NCBI RefSeq assembly: GCF_005943945.1
Contig: NZ_CP040710.1
Span: 2,181,001-2,245,000, forward strand
Reading direction: 5' to 3'
DNA: 64,000 nucleotides
Source: Aggregatimonas sangjinii
GTDB lineage: Bacteria > Bacteroidota > Bacteroidia > Flavobacteriales > Flavobacteriaceae
How positions within the stretch are numbered: the stretch's first letter is position 1; the number at the start of each line of letters is the position of its first letter. The notes under the pieces were generated by a model, which saw only the letters and a program-made list of their open reading frames with translations, did not search any database and was not told the DNA's origin. The position numbers were made by a program, and so were the translations under genes. This document shows positions 46,646 through 61,807 of this stretch, piece after piece.

Positions 46646-47785
46646 ATGAAATCAATCTCGCTCGTTTTACTATTGTCTTGCTTTATTGCTGTACCCTTGA
46701 ATGGTCAAGAAGTTGATCCAAAGCCAAAATTCGATATCGATTTTGGAGGTGCCTTACGCTATAACTATGTCTATTCTTCATGGAAGCCCAATCAGCAAAA
46801 GCGTGGTGGGGATATTGGTTTTGAGGTCTTTCGGATCAATGTTGATGCCACCTATGGCGATTTGGAACTTCATATAGACCAACGGTTTTATTCCAAGGCT
46901 TTCGGCGGTGCATTCCTTAAATACGGCTGGTTTCAATACAATCTTAATAAGGAGAGTCATCTTAAATTAGGGCTAATACCTGTATATTTCGGACCGCAAC
47001 AGTTCAACTCAAATAGTTGGTTTTTTCAGCTTCCGTTTTATATAGGGTTTGAAGACGATCACGACATGGGTATCAGTTACGACTATGAAAACGAGCATTT
47101 CCGTTTAGACGTGGCTTTTCATAAAAATGCAGAGGCACTCACTTTCGGGGATAATGCCCCCGTATCACCGGACCGGTATTCGTATGACTTTTCCGGTCGC
47201 AACAAAGAGGTCAACCAATTTAATCTAAGGTTCAACTATAAATTGAATGGAGCGGTAAAACAGCTCTTAGGCACCTCAGTTCAATATGGCGGCATCTGGA
47301 ATCTGGACACTCAGGAAACCGGAACTCAGGCAGCCTTGGGGCTTCACTATCAAATGGATTACAAACGAATTAATCTAAAGACACAGTTTATTTCCTACAA
47401 CAACAAACCCGAAAATAGCGATGGTGAATCTCGGGATATCATTGAGATGGCCGCCTATAATTTTCCGTACAACACCGCGGCCAAGGCAAATACCTATTCC
47501 GTAGCACTGGCCTATACCATTCCCGTGAATTGGGGCCCATTTAACTCCGTTCAATTATACAACGATTACACCTACATGGATAAGGCAATAGCCACATGGG
47601 AGGATACCCAAATGAATGTAACCGGTATGTTTTTGGATATTAAGCCTGTTTATATCTATATTGATTACGCCCAGGGTCTCAACCATCCTTGGCTGGAGCC
47701 CAACCCTACCAATGCCCTTACGACAGGCGACCCTAACAATGGCTGGGAAAGCAGGTTCAACATCAATATTGGATTTTACTATTAG
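46646..47785 (+). CDS. outer-membrane porin-like beta-barrel
   Basis: A 379-residue protein with a signal peptide (LVLLLSCFIAVPLNGQ). The mature part alternates hydrophobic and polar strands with aromatic girdle residues (ALRYNYVYSSW, FDIDFGGAL, GIFLKYGW-type strands) and ends in an aromatic strand (NINIGFYY), typical of a 16-strand porin, perhaps of the phosphate-selective (OprP/OprO) type. It ends 2 bp before the cache-channel gene. This makes an operon with the two paralogues that follow, and the porin may bring in their ligand or ion. Confidence 0.75.
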   Translation: MKSISLVLLLSCFIAVPLNGQEVDPKPKFDIDFGGALRYNYVYSSWKPNQQKRGGDIGFEVFRINVDATYGDLELHIDQRFYSKAFGGAFLKYGWFQYNLNKESHLKLGLIPVYFGPQQFNSNSWFFQLPFYIGFEDDHDMGISYDYENEHFRLDVAFHKNAEALTFGDNAPVSPDRYSYDFSGRNKEVNQFNLRFNYKLNGAVKQLLGTSVQYGGIWNLDTQETGTQAALGLHYQMDYKRINLKTQFISYNNKPENSDGESRDIIEMAAYNFPYNTAAKANTYSVALAYTIPVNWGPFNSVQLYNDYTYMDKAIATWEDTQMNVTGMFLDIKPVYIYIDYAQGLNHPWLEPNPTNALTTGDPNNGWESRFNINIGFYY

Positions 47786-47787
47786 AA

Positions 47788-49896
47788 ATGGTCAAGAAAT
47801 TACTTTACGGAGTGGCGATCATCATTTTTATAACGCTAATCTACCATGCATACGAACTGTACAGCTATACCGAACAGCGCACTGAAACGGCGCTTCGCAA
47901 GGCTAATGAGACCACAAATACGCTAAAGGTCCAGGTTGATTCGATCCTTCAAATTATCGAGGGCGAGGGTGAACGATTGGCTGCTTTGTTCGGAGCAAAT
48001 GAGTATACGAAGGAAGAAATACTGACAATCATTAAGGAAAGTTCAATCGGGATACCGGAATTACAGGGAATAACGGCATGCTACGAACCCTATGCCTTTG
48101 ATGACGACAAAAGGCTTTTTTGCCCTTACTTCAATAAAAGTAGCGGTGATTATGTTTTCGTAGAAGATAGTTACGATTATTCAGATCCTACCCTCGAAGG
48201 TACGGATTGGTATACCAGCGTAAGGGAAAACGGTTCGAAATGGGTAGAGCCATACTATGCAAAGGCGGGCAAGGACTGGTATATTGATTTTGGAATCCCG
48301 TTTCACTACCAAACAGGACCAAAAAAAGGACAGGTGCGCGGAACGATTACCATGAGCCTGGTAGCCAGCAGGTTTAAGAGTTTGATACTTTCGTTGAGTT
48401 TGGGCAAAACGGGTTACGGTATCATCACCTCGAAAGAAGGAAATTTTTTATCCCATCCGATCAACGATTATGTAGGCACCACGAACTTAAAATTAGTCCA
48501 ACAGAAAGAGAAACAACCCGAACTGGTCAGGGTTTTCGACAGTATCCGAACAGGAAAATCAGGTACCGTTACCTACACCCAATTGGATACTGATGATGAG
48601 GTAATTTTTCAATACGATAAAATACCTACCTCTGACTGGGGCTTGGGACTTCAATTCTTGAAAAAGGAATTAGTAGGAAATACTTCCGAAAGAAATCACA
48701 GGTATATCAAATTGGCCCTATTGTTCTCGGCCTTGCTTTTGATTCTTATCGCTATTTATTTTAATAAAGACTATCTGGATGTTGGTGAAATCTGGCAATT
48801 GAGTATTCTAGCTTCCACCCTGATTATTTTGAACATCGGTTTTATTTGGTATTTACAACATACAGGTACTCGCGCTTTTGAGGAACAAAGTCCGCCTATT
48901 TCAACTACAAGTGGTTTGGAGAATTTCGTAAGCCAACAGCACCGCCGTCTGGATAACTTAAAGCTATCCAAATCGATTCCCGTACCTACCGGGCTGTTCA
49001 TACAACGTATGGCTTTCGAAAATAGCTACAACATCAATGTTTCCGGAACAGTTTGGCAAAAGTATCCGTTAGATGTGGCAGATAAAGTGCAAACCGGATT
49101 CTTGATGCCTCAAGTTTCCCCCTTCGCCGAGGCCTCATATATTGAAGAAAAATACCGAAAAAAAATAGAGGCAACCATAAATCAAGAGGGGTATCTGTTA
49201 ATTGGCTATGACCTTCGGGTAACTCTACAACAAAGCTTGGACTATAGCAGCTTTCCGTTCGACAAAAGACATGTGCGTATCGATTTAGTTCCCAAAAATA
49301 GTGAGGATAGACTATTGTTCACCCCCGACCTTGATAGCTATGAAATCACGAATCCGACCAGAAAACCAGGATTGAACCCCGAGGTGAAAATATCGGGTAA
49401 TCGAATTATGAAAAGCTATTTTAGCTACACCACGAAATCGTTTGACACCGATTTTGGTTTCGGCTCGAAAACACTCTTTGAGGAGGTGCCCATACTCCAT
49501 TATAATGTGGATTTGAGGCGCAAATTATTGAATGTTTTCATCACCTACCTGATTCCCATTTTCGTGAGCCTGCTCATGATTTTTATTCTCATTATGGCCT
49601 GTGCGAAGACCGAAGAGCGCCAAGGCATCATCGAAGGTATGGCGGCATTCTTTTTTGTGTTGGTGTTTTCGCATATTGATTTGCGCAAGGAAATCATCAC
49701 CGCGGATTTGATTTACATGGAGTACTTCTATTTCATTACCTATTTCATCATAATGGTGACGACTTGGAATTTGATTACCTACGCCAAGAGCAAAAGCCCT
49801 TTGTTCGATTACGAAGAAAACCTGATTTTTAAATCCCTATATTTTCCCTTTTTCTTTTTGTGTGTCTTAATCGTGACTTTGGCCAAATTTTATTGA
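47788..49896 (+). CDS. dCache sensor fused to pentameric-ligand-gated-ion-channel-like module (paralogue A)
   Basis: A 702-residue inner-membrane protein. Order: helix 5-24; periplasmic dCache-like domain about 30-300 (CYEPYAFDDDKRLFCPYF, TDWYTSVRENGSKWVEPYY, VRGTITMSLV, KTGYGIITSKEGNFLSHP); helices at about 306-325 and 336-356; then a module with the pentameric channel pattern. That module has strands SIPVPTGLFIQRMAFENSY and VSGTVWQKYP, GYDLRVTLQQ, and the Pro-loop FPFDKRHVRIDL (489-500). Four helices follow: 582-604, 612-630 (pore-lining, HIDLRKEI at its end), 641-663 and 679-699. Helix count puts the channel C terminus outside, as in the family. I infer a chemosensor-gated channel; the ligand is unknown. 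Confidence 0.72.
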   Translation: MVKKLLYGVAIIIFITLIYHAYELYSYTEQRTETALRKANETTNTLKVQVDSILQIIEGEGERLAALFGANEYTKEEILTIIKESSIGIPELQGITACYEPYAFDDDKRLFCPYFNKSSGDYVFVEDSYDYSDPTLEGTDWYTSVRENGSKWVEPYYAKAGKDWYIDFGIPFHYQTGPKKGQVRGTITMSLVASRFKSLILSLSLGKTGYGIITSKEGNFLSHPINDYVGTTNLKLVQQKEKQPELVRVFDSIRTGKSGTVTYTQLDTDDEVIFQYDKIPTSDWGLGLQFLKKELVGNTSERNHRYIKLALLFSALLLILIAIYFNKDYLDVGEIWQLSILASTLIILNIGFIWYLQHTGTRAFEEQSPPISTTSGLENFVSQQHRRLDNLKLSKSIPVPTGLFIQRMAFENSYNINVSGTVWQKYPLDVADKVQTGFLMPQVSPFAEASYIEEKYRKKIEATINQEGYLLIGYDLRVTLQQSLDYSSFPFDKRHVRIDLVPKNSEDRLLFTPDLDSYEITNPTRKPGLNPEVKISGNRIMKSYFSYTTKSFDTDFGFGSKTLFEEVPILHYNVDLRRKLLNVFITYLIPIFVSLLMIFILIMACAKTEERQGIIEGMAAFFFVLVFSHIDLRKEIITADLIYMEYFYFITYFIIMVTTWNLITYAKSKSPLFDYEENLIFKSLYFPFFFLCVLIVTLAKFY

Positions 49897-49975
49897 GATA
49901 GAAAACAAACAATTTCGGATGCCTTACATTATATGCCCATCTGTGAACATTTAAACCATAGCTGATCGCCCATTT

Positions 49976-52084
49976 ATGTTCAAAAAGATTTTTGCCGGTC
50001 TTGCCCTAGTAGTGCTCACTGCAGTGCTATTTCATTCCGTTGCCCTTTATCGCTTTACGCAAGAGCGGAATGCCATGGTTACCACGAAAGCCGAACAAAC
50101 TATGGATTCGCTTAAGGGACAGGTCGACACTATCTTGCGCACTATAGTCGCAGAGGCCGATCGCTTAGCGGACGACTTTGGAGCCAATGACTACACTCAA
50201 GAACAAATTGAAGATATCATCCAGAACTCGGCCCTTAAAATACCCCAATTACAAGGTGTTACGGCCTGCTTTGAACCTTATGCCCAATCGGATGATAGAA
50301 GACTCTACTGCCCTTATTACGACAAGGGTTTAGGGAAACGCATCTACCTAGAGCAAGGGTATGATTATACCGACACCGAAACTCCAGGAACAGCTTGGTA
50401 TACGGGGGTTCGCGACGCAGGTGCAAAATGGGTAGAGCCTTATTTTGGAACCAACATCAAAGACTGGTTCATCGATTACGGCACCCCTTTTTACTATTCC
50501 TCCGGGCCTAAGAAAGGTCAGGTACGGGGTACCATTACCATGAGTTTTCTAACGAGTGGTTTTAAAAATATGGTGCTTTCGCTTAGCCTTGGCAAAACCG
50601 GATACGGTATCATCACTTCCGCCAATGGAACCTTTTTATCGCATCCGGTAAACGACTACGTTGGTACGGCGAGCTTGGATAGTATCAACAAAGTACAGCG
50701 ACAACCGGAATTGAAAAAAGCATTTAACGCCATTCAAGCGGGTGAAAAGGGTACGGTTTTTTTCAATCAAGAAGAAACAGGGGAAGATGCGCTTTTCATC
50801 TATGATAAAATTCCAACTTCCGATTGGGGTATCGGTCTACTGTTTTACACCCGCGAATTGTCGGGCGATATATCGGATTTAAACGAACGGTATATCAAGC
50901 TGGCCTTGTGGATTTCGCTATTTCTAATCATGATTATAGCCGTCTATTTCAATAAGGACCATCTAGACGCCGGAGAAATCTGGCAACTAAGCATCCTCGC
51001 TACCATTTTATTGATATTGAATATTGTCTTTATCTGGTACTTGCAGCATGCCCGTATGAGTAATGAGGAAAACCTGAATCCGCCCGTTTCGGACATGGGC
51101 AGCTTAGGGAATTTCGTAAGCCAACAGCATCAACGCTTGGAAGCATTGCGACTGCCAAAATCAATTCCTATACCCACGGGAATATTGGTGCAGCGAATCG
51201 CTTTTCAGAACAGTTACAATGTAAACATATCTGCTACCGTTTGGCAAAAGTACCCAATTGACATTATCGATAAGATACAGGTAGGTTTTACTTTACCGCA
51301 GACCTCCCCTTTTGCCGAAGCTTCTTATATAGAGGAAATCTACCGAAAGATAATCCCGCCACAAGGAAGTACAGCGGGCTATCTACTAATCGGTTGGGAA
51401 TTTCGGGTAACCCTGCAACAATATCTGGATTATCAAGACTTTCCGTTCGACAAGCGGCACATAAGTATGGATATTGTACCAATTAGCGCGGAGGATCAAC
51501 TGGTTTTCGTACCCGACCTACAAAGTTATGAGTTTACCAATCCTACAAAAAAACCCGGATTGGATAAGGAAGTAAAAGTTTCTGGGAATATTGTTACCAA
51601 AAGTTATTTCAGTCTTAGCCGCCAATCCTACGATAGCGATTTCGGATTCGGATCGAAAACCCTATTTGAAGATGTTCCGGTCTTGCATTATAATATTGAT
51701 TTACGACGAATTCTTTTGAATGTATTCGTCACCTATCTCATCCCGATTTTTGTCAGTCTTATCATGATGTTCATTCTCCTACTAGCGGCCAACAAAACGA
51801 AGGAACGCCAAGGCATTATCGAAGGTATGGCGGCATTCTTTTTTGTGTTGGTGTTTTCGCATATTGATTTGCGCAAGGAAATCATCACTGCCGACCTTAT
51901 TTTCATCGAGTATTTTTATTTCATTACCTACTTCATGATCATCCTCACTACTTGGAATTTGATTACCTACGCCAAAAACAAGGCGCCGATTTTCGATTAC
52001 AACGACAATCAGATTTTCAAAGCCTGCTTTTTTCCTTTTTTCTTTCTTTGTATGTTGATCGTAACCCTGTCAGAATTTTACTAA
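49976..52084 (+). CDS. dCache sensor fused to pentameric-ligand-gated-ion-channel-like module (paralogue B)
   Basis: A 702-residue paralogue of the gene just upstream, co-linear with it throughout. The dCache motifs recur (CFEPYAQSDDRRLYCPYY, TAWYTGVRDAGAKWVEPYF, GKTGYGIITSANGTFLSHP). The channel module has SIPIPTGILVQRIAFQNSY, ISATVWQKYP, the Pro-loop DFPFDKRHISMDI and the same four-helix end. The pore helix block ERQGIIEGMAAFFFVLVFSH is unchanged in protein and nearly unchanged in DNA. Differences elsewhere are spread through the sensor and linkers, so the two could sense different ligands or form mixed pentamers. It starts 79 bp after paralogue A. Confidence 0.72.
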   Translation: MFKKIFAGLALVVLTAVLFHSVALYRFTQERNAMVTTKAEQTMDSLKGQVDTILRTIVAEADRLADDFGANDYTQEQIEDIIQNSALKIPQLQGVTACFEPYAQSDDRRLYCPYYDKGLGKRIYLEQGYDYTDTETPGTAWYTGVRDAGAKWVEPYFGTNIKDWFIDYGTPFYYSSGPKKGQVRGTITMSFLTSGFKNMVLSLSLGKTGYGIITSANGTFLSHPVNDYVGTASLDSINKVQRQPELKKAFNAIQAGEKGTVFFNQEETGEDALFIYDKIPTSDWGIGLLFYTRELSGDISDLNERYIKLALWISLFLIMIIAVYFNKDHLDAGEIWQLSILATILLILNIVFIWYLQHARMSNEENLNPPVSDMGSLGNFVSQQHQRLEALRLPKSIPIPTGILVQRIAFQNSYNVNISATVWQKYPIDIIDKIQVGFTLPQTSPFAEASYIEEIYRKIIPPQGSTAGYLLIGWEFRVTLQQYLDYQDFPFDKRHISMDIVPISAEDQLVFVPDLQSYEFTNPTKKPGLDKEVKVSGNIVTKSYFSLSRQSYDSDFGFGSKTLFEDVPVLHYNIDLRRILLNVFVTYLIPIFVSLIMMFILLLAANKTKERQGIIEGMAAFFFVLVFSHIDLRKEIITADLIFIEYFYFITYFMIILTTWNLITYAKNKAPIFDYNDNQIFKACFFPFFFLCMLIVTLSEFY

Positions 52085-54826: not shown

Positions 54827-57800
54827 ATGAAAAATTTTACTTCCAAGGTGTTATGCCTTGTGTTTACATTGGCATTGGGAATAAACCTGATGCATTCGAA
54901 CTACAAGGAATCCGATTCAGGATTTCTGACGACGCACGTCGATAAGGTTTCCCCAGGGATTTCCGACCTCGACGAAGTTCCCATTCAATGTTCCGGAGAA
55001 GCAGTTATCCCGGAATATGAAGTTGATGGGGAATGGTTGAGTGGTAATAACGATTTGGTTGTTGCCGAAGGTACATCGCTTAAACTTAGTGGTCTTCCCA
55101 ATAAGCTAAGTTTCTCCATAGAATTGCCAAGTGGCGAGATTGTCGGGGATGATTATGACCTGGGAAGCGTAACTCCTTCACAAAACGGAACCTATATCGT
55201 ACGTTCTCACCAAGGATGTGAGACCATTATTGCCTTAACCGTTGAGGGAAGCAGTACAGGCGACACCGGTAACGAATCGAATTGTGACGGAGCAGCCGTT
55301 ATTCCTGAATACCGAATTAACGGTGAGTGGCTAAGCGGTAATAATCAAGTTACGGTCGAGGAAGGCACAGCGGTAGAGCTGAGTGGCCTACCTAATAGTC
55401 TCTCCTTATCAATTCAGCTTCCCAATGGCCAAATTGTGGGTGACGATTATAATTTGGGAAATGTTACTCCTGAAGCGAACGGCACCTATATCGTACGTTC
55501 TTCCGGAGGATGTGAAACGACTATAATGTTAACCGTAGAAGGCGGGAACACAGAAAATCCAAACCCCGATACAACCTGCAATGGCCGTACGGTCATACCT
55601 GAGTATGAGGTTGACGGAGAATGGTTAAGTGGTGACAACGAATTGGTATTGGAAGAGGGCACGGCACTTAAGCTTAGTGGGCTCCCAAACAGTTTGTCCT
55701 TATCTATTATTCTTCCCACTGGTGAAGAAGTGGCCGATGATTACGATTTAGGTACGATTACCTCTTCCGACGAAGGAACTTATATCGTGAGGTCATCGGA
55801 AGGTTGCGAATCCGCAATCAATCTTACGGTAACTGGAGGTGAAACAGCTTGCGAAGGCGAAAATGTAATTCCTGAATACCAAATTGATGGAGAATGGTTA
55901 AGTGGGGAAAATAGAATTTCCGTACCACAAGGTACTCCAGTGGTCATAAGCGGTTTGCCAAACACTTTAAGTTTAATGGTAGAATTACCGAATGGGGAGA
56001 TTCAAGATGATGATTTCAGCTTAGGGAATATTACTACTGCTCAAGCAGGCACGTACACGATTCGCTCTTCGCAAGGATGCTCGACTACATTAACAATAGA
56101 TGTAATCGAAGAGCCCACTGCAGATTGTGTCGGAGAGACTATTATTCCAGAATATCAGGTTGATGGTGAATGGTTGGACGGTGACAAGCAGCTTTCGATA
56201 TCCGAAGGTACAATGCTGGTTCTTAGCGGTCTTCCCAATTCCTTGCGACTATCAATAGAATTGCCAAATGGCAGTATTGTGGGCGATGATTATGATCTTG
56301 GGAGCGTGACACCTTCAGATAGCGGTACGTATATTATACGTTCCGAGGAAGGTTGCGAGGTATCCTTTGCGTTAACCGTGACCGATGATGGCAATTCAGG
56401 TCCAGAAGATCCGGGTGGAGATGGCCCGGCAGTAGGCGCACAACGTGTAGAAGCAGAAACGGAAGCGGAAGCGGAAGTAGAATCCGAAACCGATGACGGA
56501 GTTGCGGCTGGTTCTGTAGCCGTAGGTGCTGCAGGTGCGGCTTTAAGCCCTAATTCTGCTGCAGTCAGTAGAACCTCGGGGTCTATTTCGAAAAGTACCA
56601 ACGTTCCGGCCGAGCGATTGAATCCGGATGAATCTACCAGTCAAGGTGGAAGCAGTGATGGTGCACCGGAACCCGGTGACAATGAAAGTGGCGGTGACAC
56701 GACGGATGAAGGTAGTGAAGCTGAGGCCGAGGCCGAGGCCGAATCCGAAGCCGAAGCTGAAGTGGCCAACGGTGCCGCCGTTGCAGTGGGCGGATCAGCA
56801 GTTAGTGCAGCCGGTGGCGGACGTAGTGTGTATTTGGATGATGAAGGCCGATTGGTACTTTATCCTTCGGAAGCAACACTGGGAGCCGATGCAAAAACAT
56901 CAACCTCTACGTCGACATCTAAAGTAAACATCACTTTTCCAGCGAACAATGAGCCACAAGGTGGTGGTGGTTCTGGAGGAGGAGGCACTGGAGGTGGCGG
57001 TGGTGACGGCGGTAGCCCCATCACGACCATTGGTGAAAAAACGACTATCAACGAAGATAGCCCCATCAATATCAATGTACTGAGCAACGATACCGGGCCG
57101 ATAGATCCAACGACGGTAGCGATCGAATCACAACCCTCAAATGGTATAGCAGTGGTGAATGCAGATGGTACCGTACGCTATACTCCAGATGCGAATTTTA
57201 ATGGAGAAGATAGTTTTGTCTACTCCGTTGGTGACGGAAACGGGAATAAATCGAACGGTGTGGTTGATGTAACAGTTACGCCAATTAATGATTTGCCCAC
57301 GGTCACAGGAACTATTCCAGATCAAAATGGTGTTGTAGGCCAAGTTTTCAATTACACGATACCATCCGACCTTTTCAGCGATCCGGATGCGAATGATAGA
57401 CAATTAAGTCTAAGTGTAACGAATCTGCCATCAGGTTTGAAAAGGGAGGGTACTCAGATAGTCGGTACACCCAGAGCTCCAGGAGATTTCAAAGTTGCCG
57501 TACAGGCGACAGATGAGGCCGGTGCAACCGTACAGACCGATTTTAATTTGAACATTAGGGCACAGGGAGCATCGAATGTAACCACCGTTGCCGATACAGC
57601 GACTACTGACGAAAATACGGCCACAACGGTACGTGTTCTCGATAACGATCAGGGTCCTGTTGATTCAGCAACTGTTGCAATCGAGAGACAACCCTCTAAT
57701 GGACGGGCTGCTGCCAATCCCGATGGAACAGTAACTTACACGCCTAATCCTGGCTTTTCAGGTGGTGATAGTTTCGTGTATTCTGTTAGGGATACCGATG

Positions 57801-60800
57801 GTGTAAAGGCCACTGGAACAGTAAGTGTTACCGTAAACAATACCAATGACGGTCCCGTGGTCGACCAAGGTATTGCGGATCAGACGGCTACCGTAGGTAC
57901 GAGTTTTATGTTCACCATTCCGGCAAATGCATTTAGCGACCCGGATGGTACTAGCGAATTTAGCTATACCGCAACAAATGTACCTTCCGGAATTACATTC
58001 TCGGAAAGTCAGTTTGCAGGCACGCCCACTGCCGCGGGCAGCACTGTGATTACGGTAACCGCTACCGACGAGGCCGGTGCATCGGCACAGACTGATTTCA
58101 CCCTTACCGTTAGCGGTTCTACCGGCGGTGGAGGCGGAGGTGAAGGTGGTCCGGTCACAGCCAACGAAGAAGAGTTTGCCGTCTTGGAAGACAGCAGCAC
58201 GGACTTCGATGTTTTGAGTAATGACTCAGGACCTATCGACATTTCTACATTAACCGTAACAGGTCCGCCATCCAACGGTACGGCCACAGCCAATGCAAAT
58301 GGTACGGTTACTTACGAGCCAAGTCTAAACTATGTTGGCGAGGACAGCTTTATGTACTCCATAGGCGACGGGAATGGGAACACGAGTAGCACTACCGTTA
58401 GCCTTCAGGTTGATCCGGTGAATGATACGCCGGTTGTCGATCAAGGCATTGCGGATCAAACTGCGGTAGTTGGTGAGAATTATATGTTCACCATTCCTTC
58501 GAATGCTTTCTCAGATCCCGATTTGGACAGTCAGCTTAGCATCACATCTATGAACTTACCATCTGGACTTAATTTCGAGGATACCAAAATTGTTGGTATA
58601 CCAAGCCAAGCGGGATCGTTTGTTACGACCATTATGGTTGAGGATGAAGGCGGTTTAACGGCTTCGACCACGTATACTACGACGGTTCAGGAAGCTGGTT
58701 CCGGAACTGGTGGTGATGGAGGTGGTGAAGGTAGTTCTACCGTTACTGCCAACGAAGAGGAATTCACCGTTCAGGAAGACAGTTCGAATAATTTCGACGT
58801 TCTCAGCAATGATACCGGAGAGATAAATCCATCGACAGTCGCCATAGAGTCGCAAGCCTCCAATGGAACGGCAACGCCGAATAGCGATGGTACCATTACC
58901 TATGAACCCGCGCTGAACTTCTTCGGTTCGGATAGCTTTAGTTATTCCGTAGGAGATGGTAACGGAAGTCGATCGCAGACGACCGTTAGCCTATCGATCA
59001 ACAATGTGAACGATAGTCCTGTGGTTGATCAAGGAATTGCAAATCAAACGGCACAAGTGGGGCAAAATTTTAGCTTTACCATTCCGATGAATGCGTTCAG
59101 TGATCCCGATCCTGATGCCCAATTGAGTATCACCGCTATGAACCTACCTCCTGGATTGGCCTTTGAGGACACCAAAATCGTAGGTATGCCGCAACAGGCC
59201 GGTAGCTTCACGGTAACCATCTCAGTTGAAGACGAAGGTGGTTTAACGGCGTCGACGATGTTCGATATCAGTGTGAGCAATGCTTCGACCGCGCGTGCGG
59301 CTCGTATGGCTTCTTTAAATGCGAAAAAGAATGGTATTCAAACCTTCTCCGCTCCAGTAGCGAAAGGTACTAGCCTAACTGCTAGAGGACCTGGTGCAGG
59401 TCTCCCTTTTGCGGATCCCGACACCGTTCCTATTATTCAAACGGATACCGAGGCCGAAGTTGAGTCGGAGAGTGAGGCCGAAGCAGAGGCAGAAACCGTT
59501 ACAGGAGCAGCAGCAGCTGTTGCTACAGGTGGTTCAGCAGTTGCCGCAGTAGGTGATTTTGCCGAGGCGGATGCGTTGGTCTCCGTGGCCAGTTCTACCT
59601 CCACTTCGGAAGTAAATGAGGAACAGCCGGAACTTTTTGCCAATATGAATGAGGATAGTGCTGGTGGTGCAACCGCTACCAAAGCCGCTAGCCCGAACAT
59701 AAATAATACGAAGGCAGTAAGTGCTGTGGCTTTTAAAGCTTCTGACATCCTGAACATACCACAACCCACAGATGGGAAAGGATTGTTCGAGTCTGAATCG
59801 GAAGCAGAAGCGGAAGCCGAAGCAGAGGCCGAAGTAGACAATAATGCAGCGGCAGCATCAGCGGTCGCTTCCGGTGGCGGTGGTGCCAACGGAATCGGTG
59901 CGACTGCACGGGTAGCATCCTCTACGGCGGTTTCTACGTCAACGGAGAACAATAACGGTACTCTGAACAGAGCCAATGACGAAGTTGATGAGGAGTCCAA
60001 TCGTTTTGATGAATTGGTATCCACACAGTCTGAGGCAGAAGTGGAAGTCGAGGCAGAAGCAGAAGCCGAAGCTGGAAATGGTAGACCGACAGCAATAGCT
60101 AGCGCGGGTACCGTGGCTTTGGGTGATGTGACCGCTGAAGCGCAGCTTACGCTGCAAGATGCAGGTGTTACAGCGCCGGCCGGCTCATCGGCACGTCAAC
60201 TTCCTTCAGATTTTCCTTGGGTCGAGGAGTCTTTTTATAAAAAAGGCGACCGTATCGAGGCGGTAGGAGTTGAAATGGCTCGAGGCATCTTTAATGTGGC
60301 CGATAAATCTTTGCGTTCCGTTACAAGTAGAGCGGTACCTTTAGGTAATCTTGAGTCGGAGAATGAGGCAGAAGCAGAGGCAGAAGCCGAAGCTGAAGTC
60401 GGATTCAATGCGGCGGCGGCCTCTGCCTCAGCAGTATCCGTACAAGCCAAAAACGGATTGGTTCCTTTACCGGCCAATGCGGCATCGGCTACGTCAACGT
60501 CGACAAGTGTTTTCGACAATGGAGAAAACAAAAACAATCACGAAAGTTTCCCAGGAGCAGCAGAACAAGGCAACTATGGGGATTTACCGGATTTGGATGT
60601 TGATTTGGATGGTTTCATCCTAGAAACGGAAACCGAGGCGGAGGCCGAGGCGGAAGTAGGCTTTGAAGCAGCTGCGGCCAGTGTTGCGGCATCTGCGGCA
60701 GGTTACGAAGGTATTCAAGCCAAAACTGCTTTTGCCACGACGCCATACGCGTCGGCAGCGGCAGCAGGTAGTGGTGCAAGGGTGACCTTATCCGTGATTA

Positions 60801-61807
60801 CGCCAGCCGAAAATGAGGCTGGAATCGTGGCAGCGAGCGCTACGGCGACCGATCCACAAGGAAGAGGTGTAGCAGTAGCCGTTGCGGTTGCCGGTGTACC
60901 TTTCGAAGATGGTTCCGACAATGAAAGCGAAGCGGAACAAGAAGGTCTGACCATTGCTACGGTTAACGTATCAGTGTTCACCGATCCTGCAGACGCTCAA
61001 AATCCTAGAATGCTTCCGATGGGAGATGATGGAGAAGGCAGTACGGGAGGTTCAGCCACCGATGCCGATAACGAAGGTGAATCTGTTGGGGAAACAGAGA
61101 TTGAGAGTGAAGCGGAAGCGGAAGCGGAAGCCGAATCAGAAGCGGCATACGGTGTTGCAGCAGCATCCGCCGCAGCTACAGCTTCTGGAATCGGTGCGGT
61201 TGCATCGGCCAATACCTCTACGTCAACAATGGCTTATGATGGTAGCTATGAACTCAACACAACAACCGCAAGTGTCGCCAACTTTACGGCAAGAGCCGAG
61301 AGTAGTGATGCTGTCCTTAACTGGAAGTCAGTTGGTGTAGAAAAGTTCGCCGTTGATCATATGGTAAATGGTACGTATGAGGAAATCGGAACGGTCGAAA
61401 GTGCCAATCAAGGAAAGTCAGAAGACTATATGTTTAGAATGTACGGTCTCGAGGCTGACCAAGAGCATCGCTTTAGATTGCGTCCTTTGAAGTCCAGTAT
61501 CGGTGCACAGGAAGCTTCCTTTACTTTGGAAACTTCCGATGTATTCAGTATCTCGGCACCTTACCCCAATGTGATGACCAGCAGAACACAGACCGAAGTT
61601 GCCGTAAAACGCGATCAGAAAGTCACTGCCAAGGTCTATGACATGTCAGGAAGGGTCATTAACACCTTGTATGATGACGTGATGAAAGCCGATTTGAAGG
61701 AGAACTTGATATGGGTTCCTGGGCAGTCTATTCCAAACGGTCTTTATTTCATTAAGATCGAAGGAAAGGATTTCACGGAAACCTTTAAGGTGATATTGCG
61801 CAAGTAA
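54827..61807 (+). CDS. giant T9SS-exported modular cell-surface protein
   Basis: A 2326-residue protein. A signal peptide (about 1-23) is followed by five Cys-pair repeats starting at residues 55, 153, 251, 342 and 434; each begins C-x-x-x-x-VIPEY(E/R/Q)xxGEWL. Glu-Ala alternating modules then start at residue 541. A Gly-rich hinge leads into four pairs of Big_9-like and cadherin/dystroglycan-like domains (about 735-1486). More Glu-Ala modules with Ala- and Ser/Thr-rich tails fill about 1540-2145. The C-terminal sorting domain (about 2240-2326; PNGLYFIKIEGKDFTETF) ends in KVILRK, the type IX signal. I infer an outer-surface adhesin or matrix protein; Ca2+ binding in the Ig-like domains is possible. 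It ends at a strong terminator. Confidence 0.87.
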   Translation: MKNFTSKVLCLVFTLALGINLMHSNYKESDSGFLTTHVDKVSPGISDLDEVPIQCSGEAVIPEYEVDGEWLSGNNDLVVAEGTSLKLSGLPNKLSFSIELPSGEIVGDDYDLGSVTPSQNGTYIVRSHQGCETIIALTVEGSSTGDTGNESNCDGAAVIPEYRINGEWLSGNNQVTVEEGTAVELSGLPNSLSLSIQLPNGQIVGDDYNLGNVTPEANGTYIVRSSGGCETTIMLTVEGGNTENPNPDTTCNGRTVIPEYEVDGEWLSGDNELVLEEGTALKLSGLPNSLSLSIILPTGEEVADDYDLGTITSSDEGTYIVRSSEGCESAINLTVTGGETACEGENVIPEYQIDGEWLSGENRISVPQGTPVVISGLPNTLSLMVELPNGEIQDDDFSLGNITTAQAGTYTIRSSQGCSTTLTIDVIEEPTADCVGETIIPEYQVDGEWLDGDKQLSISEGTMLVLSGLPNSLRLSIELPNGSIVGDDYDLGSVTPSDSGTYIIRSEEGCEVSFALTVTDDGNSGPEDPGGDGPAVGAQRVEAETEAEAEVESETDDGVAAGSVAVGAAGAALSPNSAAVSRTSGSISKSTNVPAERLNPDESTSQGGSSDGAPEPGDNESGGDTTDEGSEAEAEAEAESEAEAEVANGAAVAVGGSAVSAAGGGRSVYLDDEGRLVLYPSEATLGADAKTSTSTSTSKVNITFPANNEPQGGGGSGGGGTGGGGGDGGSPITTIGEKTTINEDSPININVLSNDTGPIDPTTVAIESQPSNGIAVVNADGTVRYTPDANFNGEDSFVYSVGDGNGNKSNGVVDVTVTPINDLPTVTGTIPDQNGVVGQVFNYTIPSDLFSDPDANDRQLSLSVTNLPSGLKREGTQIVGTPRAPGDFKVAVQATDEAGATVQTDFNLNIRAQGASNVTTVADTATTDENTATTVRVLDNDQGPVDSATVAIERQPSNGRAAANPDGTVTYTPNPGFSGGDSFVYSVRDTDGVKATGTVSVTVNNTNDGPVVDQGIADQTATVGTSFMFTIPANAFSDPDGTSEFSYTATNVPSGITFSESQFAGTPTAAGSTVITVTATDEAGASAQTDFTLTVSGSTGGGGGGEGGPVTANEEEFAVLEDSSTDFDVLSNDSGPIDISTLTVTGPPSNGTATANANGTVTYEPSLNYVGEDSFMYSIGDGNGNTSSTTVSLQVDPVNDTPVVDQGIADQTAVVGENYMFTIPSNAFSDPDLDSQLSITSMNLPSGLNFEDTKIVGIPSQAGSFVTTIMVEDEGGLTASTTYTTTVQEAGSGTGGDGGGEGSSTVTANEEEFTVQEDSSNNFDVLSNDTGEINPSTVAIESQASNGTATPNSDGTITYEPALNFFGSDSFSYSVGDGNGSRSQTTVSLSINNVNDSPVVDQGIANQTAQVGQNFSFTIPMNAFSDPDPDAQLSITAMNLPPGLAFEDTKIVGMPQQAGSFTVTISVEDEGGLTASTMFDISVSNASTARAARMASLNAKKNGIQTFSAPVAKGTSLTARGPGAGLPFADPDTVPIIQTDTEAEVESESEAEAEAETVTGAAAAVATGGSAVAAVGDFAEADALVSVASSTSTSEVNEEQPELFANMNEDSAGGATATKAASPNINNTKAVSAVAFKASDILNIPQPTDGKGLFESESEAEAEAEAEAEVDNNAAAASAVASGGGGANGIGATARVASSTAVSTSTENNNGTLNRANDEVDEESNRFDELVSTQSEAEVEVEAEAEAEAGNGRPTAIASAGTVALGDVTAEAQLTLQDAGVTAPAGSSARQLPSDFPWVEESFYKKGDRIEAVGVEMARGIFNVADKSLRSVTSRAVPLGNLESENEAEAEAEAEAEVGFNAAAASASAVSVQAKNGLVPLPANAASATSTSTSVFDNGENKNNHESFPGAAEQGNYGDLPDLDVDLDGFILETETEAEAEAEVGFEAAAASVAASAAGYEGIQAKTAFATTPYASAAAAGSGARVTLSVITPAENEAGIVAASATATDPQGRGVAVAVAVAGVPFEDGSDNESEAEQEGLTIATVNVSVFTDPADAQNPRMLPMGDDGEGSTGGSATDADNEGESVGETEIESEAEAEAEAESEAAYGVAAASAAATASGIGAVASANTSTSTMAYDGSYELNTTTASVANFTARAESSDAVLNWKSVGVEKFAVDHMVNGTYEEIGTVESANQGKSEDYMFRMYGLEADQEHRFRLRPLKSSIGAQEASFTLETSDVFSISAPYPNVMTSRTQTEVAVKRDQKVTAKVYDMSGRVINTLYDDVMKADLKENLIWVPGQSIPNGLYFIKIEGKDFTETFKVILRK
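54989..56398 (+). repeat. five tandem Cys-pair repeats in the giant protein
   Basis: Units of about 90-100 residues begin at 54989, 55283, 55577, 55850 and 56126. Each has a first Cys, VIPEY-type start, GEWLSG (DG in unit 5), a GLPN(S/K)L core, DD(Y/F), GTY and a second Cys in GC(E/S). The two Cys may form a disulfide. The same unit reappears in the convergent protein at the window's right edge (63800-64000). Confidence 0.88.
56447..61250 (+). repeat. recurrent Glu-Ala / Ala-rich / Ser-Thr module family
   Basis: About nine copies, interrupted by the Ig-like region. Glu-Ala starts are near 56447, 56716, 59446, 59790, 60030, 60355, 60625, 60922 (degenerate) and 61091. A full copy has three parts: a strictly alternating run such as EAEAEAEAEAEV, an Ala-rich run (AAAASAVA), and, after 10-30 residues, a Ser/Thr run (STSTS). 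Alternation favours beta strands with one acidic and one small face. Copies 5, 7 and 8 lack the final STSTS part. Confidence 0.85.
57028..59280 (+). repeat. four Ig-like plus cadherin-like domain pairs
   Basis: Each pair has an Ig-type domain with NVLSNDTG-like and FNGEDSFVYSVGDGNG-like motifs (Big_9 pattern), then a cadherin/dystroglycan-type domain with VDQGIADQTA, NAFSDPD and GTP(T/R)A(A/P)G segments. Pairs begin near 57028, 57575, 58150 and 58740. Acidic loops (SDPD) suit Ca2+ binding. Confidence 0.8.

Follow-up and report, generated by a model that had tools for sequence, protein, structure and literature searches.

Two adjacent plus-strand genes of Aggregatimonas sangjinii encode 702-residue proteins in which a dCache sensor domain precedes a module homologous to pentameric ligand-gated ion channels (pLGICs), and both lie downstream of a gene for a porin-like protein. 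The genes, termed P1 (47788-49896; open reading frame (ORF), Pfam, profile search, AlphaFold2 (AF2), Foldseek) and P2 (49976-52084; ORF, Pfam, alignment), are located in a 64,000-nucleotide stretch of DNA (the window; GCF_005943945.1, NZ_CP040710.1, positions 2,181,001-2,245,000 of the forward strand). We propose that P1 and P2 are probably dCache sensor cassettes that act on a predicted pLGIC-type channel, with a periplasmic solute as the stimulus.

Both proteins follow the same order: a first transmembrane helix (TM1), dCache, TM2, TM3, a β-sandwich and the helices M1-M4. In P1, TM1 spans residues 1-25 (47788-47862; hydropathy, and the start of AF2 helix 2-70), and the dCache domain spans residues 29-297 (47872-48678; Pfam dCache_1, PDB 3li8, Foldseek 3li9). 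The TM2-TM3 hairpin, residues 301-359 (48688-48864; AF2 helices, hydropathy), forms the junction to the pLGIC-type ligand-binding domain (LBD), a β-sandwich at residues 395-578 (48970-49521; hmmsearch to GLIC, AF2 strands 397-578, Foldseek) that carries the FPFD Pro-loop at residues 489-492 (49252-49263; family conservation, superfamily signature in PMC4795631). M1 (580-605), M2 (612-635), M3 (638-667) and M4 (679-701) follow at 49525-49890 (AF2, Foldseek, conservation); the corresponding positions in the P2 gene are obtained by adding 2188. Hydropathy and AF2 agree on seven membrane helices, with TM2 at 300-324 and TM3 at 332-359. The first-pass annotation, made from the sequence alone, had claimed two tandem paralogues of 702 residues with a membrane helix, a dCache-like domain, two helices and a channel-like module in this order, hence a seven-helix subunit, and the ORFs, Pfam, hydropathy and AF2 all bear this out.

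The alignment of P1 with P2 spans both proteins in full, is free of gaps and shows 63% identity. By part, the identity is 56% in dCache, 67% in the LBD and 79% in M1-M4, with 91% in M2, which indicates that the sensors have diverged faster than the pores. The distance between P1 and P2 equals that of either protein to the orthologues, and a tree pairs the two in only 58% of bootstraps, so that a recent, lineage-specific duplication is no more than a possibility. Between the closest relatives the channel gene is under purifying selection (dN 0.015, dS 0.68).

Homology and fold of the channel module

No Pfam Neur_chan model matched a single P1 or P2 sequence, the PF02932 profile gave no match in the genome of A. 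sangjinii or in the controls, and in NCBIfam the single sequence reached LGIC_1 at E 4.9e-4, far under its cut-off. Since single-sequence searches left the channel half unproven, it had to be established with profiles. The N-terminal half of a family profile built from 23 relatives matched dCache structures among the PDB chains, and its positions 390-651 matched GLIC 14-274 at E 1.8e-4, colinear over both the LBD and the transmembrane domain (TMD). With the C-terminal profile alone, GLIC (E 1.2e-4) was followed by pLGIC chimeras and glycine receptors, and nothing else appeared up to E 1. In other genomes the same profile retrieved PBP-I-pLGIC fusions and simple pLGICs, several of which have Neur_chan matches near or under the Pfam cut-off. 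Alignment to these proteins by hhalign gave a probability of 99.4% and E 4.7e-22 over 255 columns, and their own profile matches GLIC at E 4e-24. Reversed decoys yielded no matches to the family profile.

AF2, run template-free on full-length P1 and on the C-terminal module, folded the module into a β-sandwich extracellular domain (ECD) followed by a four-helix TMD, as in pLGICs (pLDDT 83.8, pTM 0.73). All 50 PDB matches listed by Foldseek were pLGICs, namely GLIC, ELIC, sTeLIC, GABA-A, GluCl and GLIC chimeras, with E values of 1e-13 to 5e-12 and TM-scores of 0.54-0.72. As AF2 may have learned the pLGIC fold from its training structures, the sequence evidence serves as an independent leg. By homology, residues 385-702 thus constitute a pLGIC-type module. 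The first-pass annotation had expected Neur_chan_LBD and Neur_chan_memb at about these residues and had named a non-channel fold as the outcome that would speak against it: the profiles and AF2 yield the pLGIC fold, while the single-sequence Neur_chan matches failed to appear.

Residue conservation, counted in an alignment of 41 relatives against the pLGIC signatures defined in PMC4795631 (Table 1), agrees with this assignment. The VWQKYP strand of P1 (W423/Q424) is nearly invariant. In the Pro-loop, P490 is kept in 41/41, D492 in 40/41 and the preceding F/Y in 41/41; the pre-M1 residue R578 is present in 39 of the 41 and the M1 residue P590 in all. The superfamily coupling residues [F/Y]PxD, pre-M1 Arg and M1 Pro are therefore retained, and the strand, the Pro-loop and the four C-terminal helices predicted at first pass are confirmed. 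P513 and Y518 of the LBD are almost invariant as well, and E645 in M3 is found in 41/41. Two other candidates were rejected: an unrelated four-TM protein in the C-terminal half, by the hhalign score and the uniformly pLGIC fold matches listed, and chance matching of motifs, by the invariance in 41 sequences, the reversed decoys and the low dN/dS.

Sensor, predicted pore and possible stimulus

Pfam assigns dCache_1 (PF02743; cut-off 45 bits) to residues 34-287 of P1 (E 8.6e-16, 58.6 bits) and 37-287 of P2 (E 1.2e-11, 45.0 bits, that is, at the cut-off), close to the range of 30-300 anticipated at first pass. The nearest solved sequence to the P1 domain is PDB 3li8 (E 5.8e-10) and the best fold match of the AF2 model is 3li9 (E 1.7e-15), with 3lib also matched; by sequence and fold, the nearest solved structures are thus the histidine-kinase dCache domains 3li8/3lib. 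Together with the profile and the fold, the long N-terminal helix and the two PDC lobes place the domain in dCache_1. The amine chemoreceptors PctD and PacA are among the structural matches listed.

On the basis of this architecture, a periplasmic solute would enter through the porin of the operon and bind to dCache. The resulting change would travel via the tethering helices TM1 and TM2 and the TM2-TM3 hairpin, possibly also by direct contact of dCache with the β-sandwich domain, and would reach the coupling zone formed by the Pro-loop and the pre-M1 segment. There it would shift the opening of an M2-lined pore, with an effect on the entry of cations or on the membrane potential. Homopentamers and heteropentamers of the tandem copies are both conceivable. 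Homology, domain order, topology, the conserved coupling residues and the gene linkage to the porin are shown, whereas a pentamer, ion conduction, the direction of coupling and a cation preference are inferred. The direct coupling of nutrient sensing to ion flux suggested at first pass is likewise hypothetical. If the register holds, Q612 (2'), E616 (6'), A619 (9'), F623 (13') and V626 (16') would face the pore, and E609/E610 just before M2 would fit a preference for cations.

Several observations weigh against this mechanism. The TM helices of the full-length AF2 model are of low confidence (pLDDT 50-65). dCache domains are usually dimeric, which is awkward to reconcile with fivefold symmetry. 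The canonical dCache_1AA or dCache_1AM ligand motif is absent from the P1 dCache: the position of the motif Asp (PctD D235) is occupied by S190, and two other motif positions differ. Thr139 is found where, judging from PctA, we take the AA-motif Arg to be expected, while the aromatic pair W141/Y142 is kept. The Halomonas branch of the family has the motif Asp. In the pore, R633 is invariant (41/41) at the position aligned with the M2-M3 loop Pro, and the 9' residue is small (A/T/S, rarely V/G) across the 41 relatives, in a register taken from the hidden Markov model alignment to GLIC and the prediction of M2 at ~611-635, with the alignment uncertain in the M2-M3 stretch. The loop Pro occurs in 88% of the superfamily, common but not universal and not treated as defining, and 9' is Leu in 75% of pLGICs (PMC4795631). 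As both elements are replaced, the pore or its gating may be unusual or lost.

That the channel LBD itself binds the agonist, with dCache as a mere modulator or ligand concentrator as Tasneem et al. proposed for fused domains, is possible, if rather unlikely. Shorter relatives of 380-400 residues (L023, L051, L053) lack TM1-dCache-TM2 yet retain the LBD, in which W423/Q424, P513 and Y518 belong to the almost invariant positions. However, the family alignment fits poorly in the loop-A region around GLIC IWIPEIRF, and in other receptors a dCache cassette is by itself a full sensing unit. The TM2-TM3 hairpin occurs in most of the dCache-bearing relatives checked by hydropathy, and the short Acaryochloris protein aligns from TM3 onward (profile positions 329-690). 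Since short relatives begin at TM3, the long form can be read as an N-anchored channel with a whole chemoreceptor cassette (TM-dCache-TM) set in front of it.

The stimulus in the proposed dCache-gated channel may be narrowed by the gene upstream of P1. This first gene of a probable operon (46646-47785, plus strand) ends 2 bp before the P1 gene and encodes a predicted outer-membrane β-barrel of 379 residues with a signal peptide, β-rich sequence and a terminal aromatic residue; it has neither a Pfam match nor a PDB sequence match, but its features look like those of an outer-membrane porin. Five Flavobacteriaceae and one Saprospiraceae (L003-L007, L012) carry an orthologue immediately upstream of the channel gene. 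The porin is single copy in the channel-linked genomes, and eight other channel-bearing genomes are without it. Among channel-less Flavobacteriales, homologues are positioned directly upstream of a BCCT betaine/carnitine/choline transporter in 14/21 places, in 11 genera, and this linkage suggests a quaternary-amine or osmolyte stimulus. Homologues in Flavobacteriales are sometimes paired with a DPPIV peptidase or a molybdopterin oxidoreductase.

A specific version, in which betaine-, choline- or carnitine-like solutes pass the porin and are sensed by the dCache-channel, which then lets cations in, nevertheless appears quite unlikely. 3LIB, a member of the solved dCache group nearest to P1, has the amine motif (PMC10104139), and PctD and PacA resemble the domain in fold. 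Against this, Ser190 replaces the motif Asp in addition to the two further changes, and single mismatches abolished or greatly reduced ligand binding (PMC10104139); moreover, the porin shares only about half of its residues (~45-49%) with the BCCT-linked homologues, and the Vibrio channel instead follows a predicted SBP_bac_3/permease operon. We infer, if weakly, that the ligand is most likely a small zwitterion or amine. Decidedly unlikely is a full two-membrane relay, in which a betaine/choline-type porin supplies a seven-helix dCache-channel, with the two tandem subunits possibly combined in a heteropentamer, and a periplasmic osmolyte or quaternary amine, acting by way of the chemoreceptor cassette, opens the channel to cations. 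If true, it would represent a bacterial relative of the acetylcholine receptor that is gated by an amine-like nutrient via a non-orthosteric sensor.

The loss of the M2-M3 Pro and the 9' Leu across the whole subfamily, along with pLGIC homology that is weakest in M2-M4, would also suit a pLGIC-fold protein that no longer conducts ions and instead relays signals across the membrane or acts as a scaffold, with porin-dependent uptake or a partner protein as possible targets of its control. We regard this as improbable: few parts of the protein are as well conserved in the Bacteroidota branch as M2 (75-94% in the nine nearest relatives, besides its near identity between P1 and P2), whose lower face is polar (Q612 and E616 in the assumed register), and the residues that couple the ECD to the TMD are retained. 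A role as chemotaxis receptor, as suggested in 2004 for bacterial ART-LGICs (PMC549065) and in keeping with dCache as a common chemoreceptor module, is very improbable, as no MCP signalling domain (PF00015) was found in the genome by a search positive in 7/14 control genomes, and therefore no standard chemoreceptor array is expected.

Neighbourhoods and distribution of the family

Solute uptake and sensing form the common thread of the channel neighbourhoods. On a megaplasmid of Vibrio sp. THAF191d (L089:2460-6705), the genes leading directly into the dCache-pLGIC encode a predicted SBP_bac_3-permease fusion and a small permease, an arrangement predicted to resemble an ABC amino-acid uptake operon. 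In an Elusimicrobia metagenome-assembled genome (MAG; L022:5968-9974), the dCache-pLGIC is followed downstream by genes for a dCache-HAMP-nucleotide cyclase and for a SulP transporter that bears STAS and cNMP-binding domains, which suggests a cyclic-nucleotide circuit. Promoter and terminator scans gave matches at chance level only. Further along the window, 54827-61807 encodes a secreted-looking protein of 2326 residues in which extracellular domains are repeated and long acidic E-A-E-A-E runs occur.

The family is sporadic. Members occur in 3/60 near relatives, the genome of A. sangjinii included, and in 20 of 395 genomes in a sample of the phylum, mostly from one small-genome family with ~720-residue forms that we presume to be Chlorobium-like. 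In that family (L036-L049) the diverged form is very frequent and has a weak dCache match, and several genomes add a short pLGIC of ~370 residues. For the phylum of the Halomonas relative, 22/398 genomes had a match, 7 of them with close members. Others were detected in Elusimicrobia, Deltaproteobacteria and Legionella MAGs, on the Vibrio megaplasmid and on a conjugative Acaryochloris plasmid; on the Acaryochloris marina plasmid pREC1 (L088:5845-7305) a short TM-LBD-4TM member is annotated as a hypothetical protein. The homologue of Aquimarina agarilytica (L020:3876-5978) is split over two reading frames, either because the gene is broken or through an error in sequencing. None of the other loci examined showed a second copy next to the first, and eight whole genomes searched again gave one match each.

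Comparison with known systems

The fusion itself, which the first-pass annotation had believed to be undescribed, is already known: Tasneem et al. 2004 (PMC549065) described prokaryotic pLGICs of Methanosarcina, Cytophaga and Microbulbifer that bear N-terminal MCP-N+Cache domains, and proposed multi-ligand allostery for the fused domains. MCP_N is treated today as belonging to Cache (PMC4822843), and we equate MCP-N+Cache with dCache. According to PMC4795631, such fusions were known at the genome level only, and PMC12664993 states that no pLGIC other than DeCLIC has an N-terminal domain (NTD) that has been characterised even in part. A literature search joining pLGIC and 'Cache domain' found no paper, PMC549065 being the one relevant work. 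The seven-helix layout, the R633/9' signature, the tandem pair and the porin operon/BCCT context appear undescribed in the 2004 text covered here, although the layout may be implicit there.

The dCache-pLGIC family bears on the physiological role of bacterial pLGICs. A ready-made chemoreceptor cassette joined to a pLGIC core offers a modular system to ask how a foreign sensor gates a pore, and the porin/BCCT context provides a first short list of candidate ligands. With the invariant Arg in place of the M2-M3 Pro and the small 9' residue, the family is a natural experiment that probes gating elements regarded as near-universal.

Like P1 and P2, the ART-LGICs of Tasneem et al. (PMC549065) place a Cache-type sensor N-terminal to the pLGIC core in one protein; compared by description rather than by sequence, the 2004 text mentions no extra TM hairpin, tandem genes or porin linkage. 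GLIC, ELIC and sTeLIC share the fold of LBD and M1-M4, [F/Y]PxD, the pre-M1 Arg and the M1 Pro, but they comprise only the C-terminal half of the layout, at ~12% identity in structural alignments, whereas P1 and P2 have an added TM anchor, Arg for the M2-M3 Pro and Ala at 9'. DeCLIC is likewise a bacterial pLGIC with a large periplasmic N-terminal domain, yet its NTD consists of two jelly-roll lobes (PMC9897478, PMC12664993) instead of dCache. The PBP-I (Peripla_BP_6)-pLGIC fusions of Pseudomonadota also combine a periplasmic solute-binding domain with a homologous pLGIC core; they differ in carrying PBP-I rather than dCache and in lacking the TM hairpin by hydropathy, and in several the TM region is weakly matched by Neur_chan_memb. 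Finally, dCache chemoreceptors and histidine kinases (3li8/3lib, PctA/PctD, TlpQ) use the same TM-dCache-TM sensing cassette, but whereas their output is an MCP, kinase, GGDEF or similar domain, in P1 and P2 the cassette is followed, after an extra TM helix, by the channel module.

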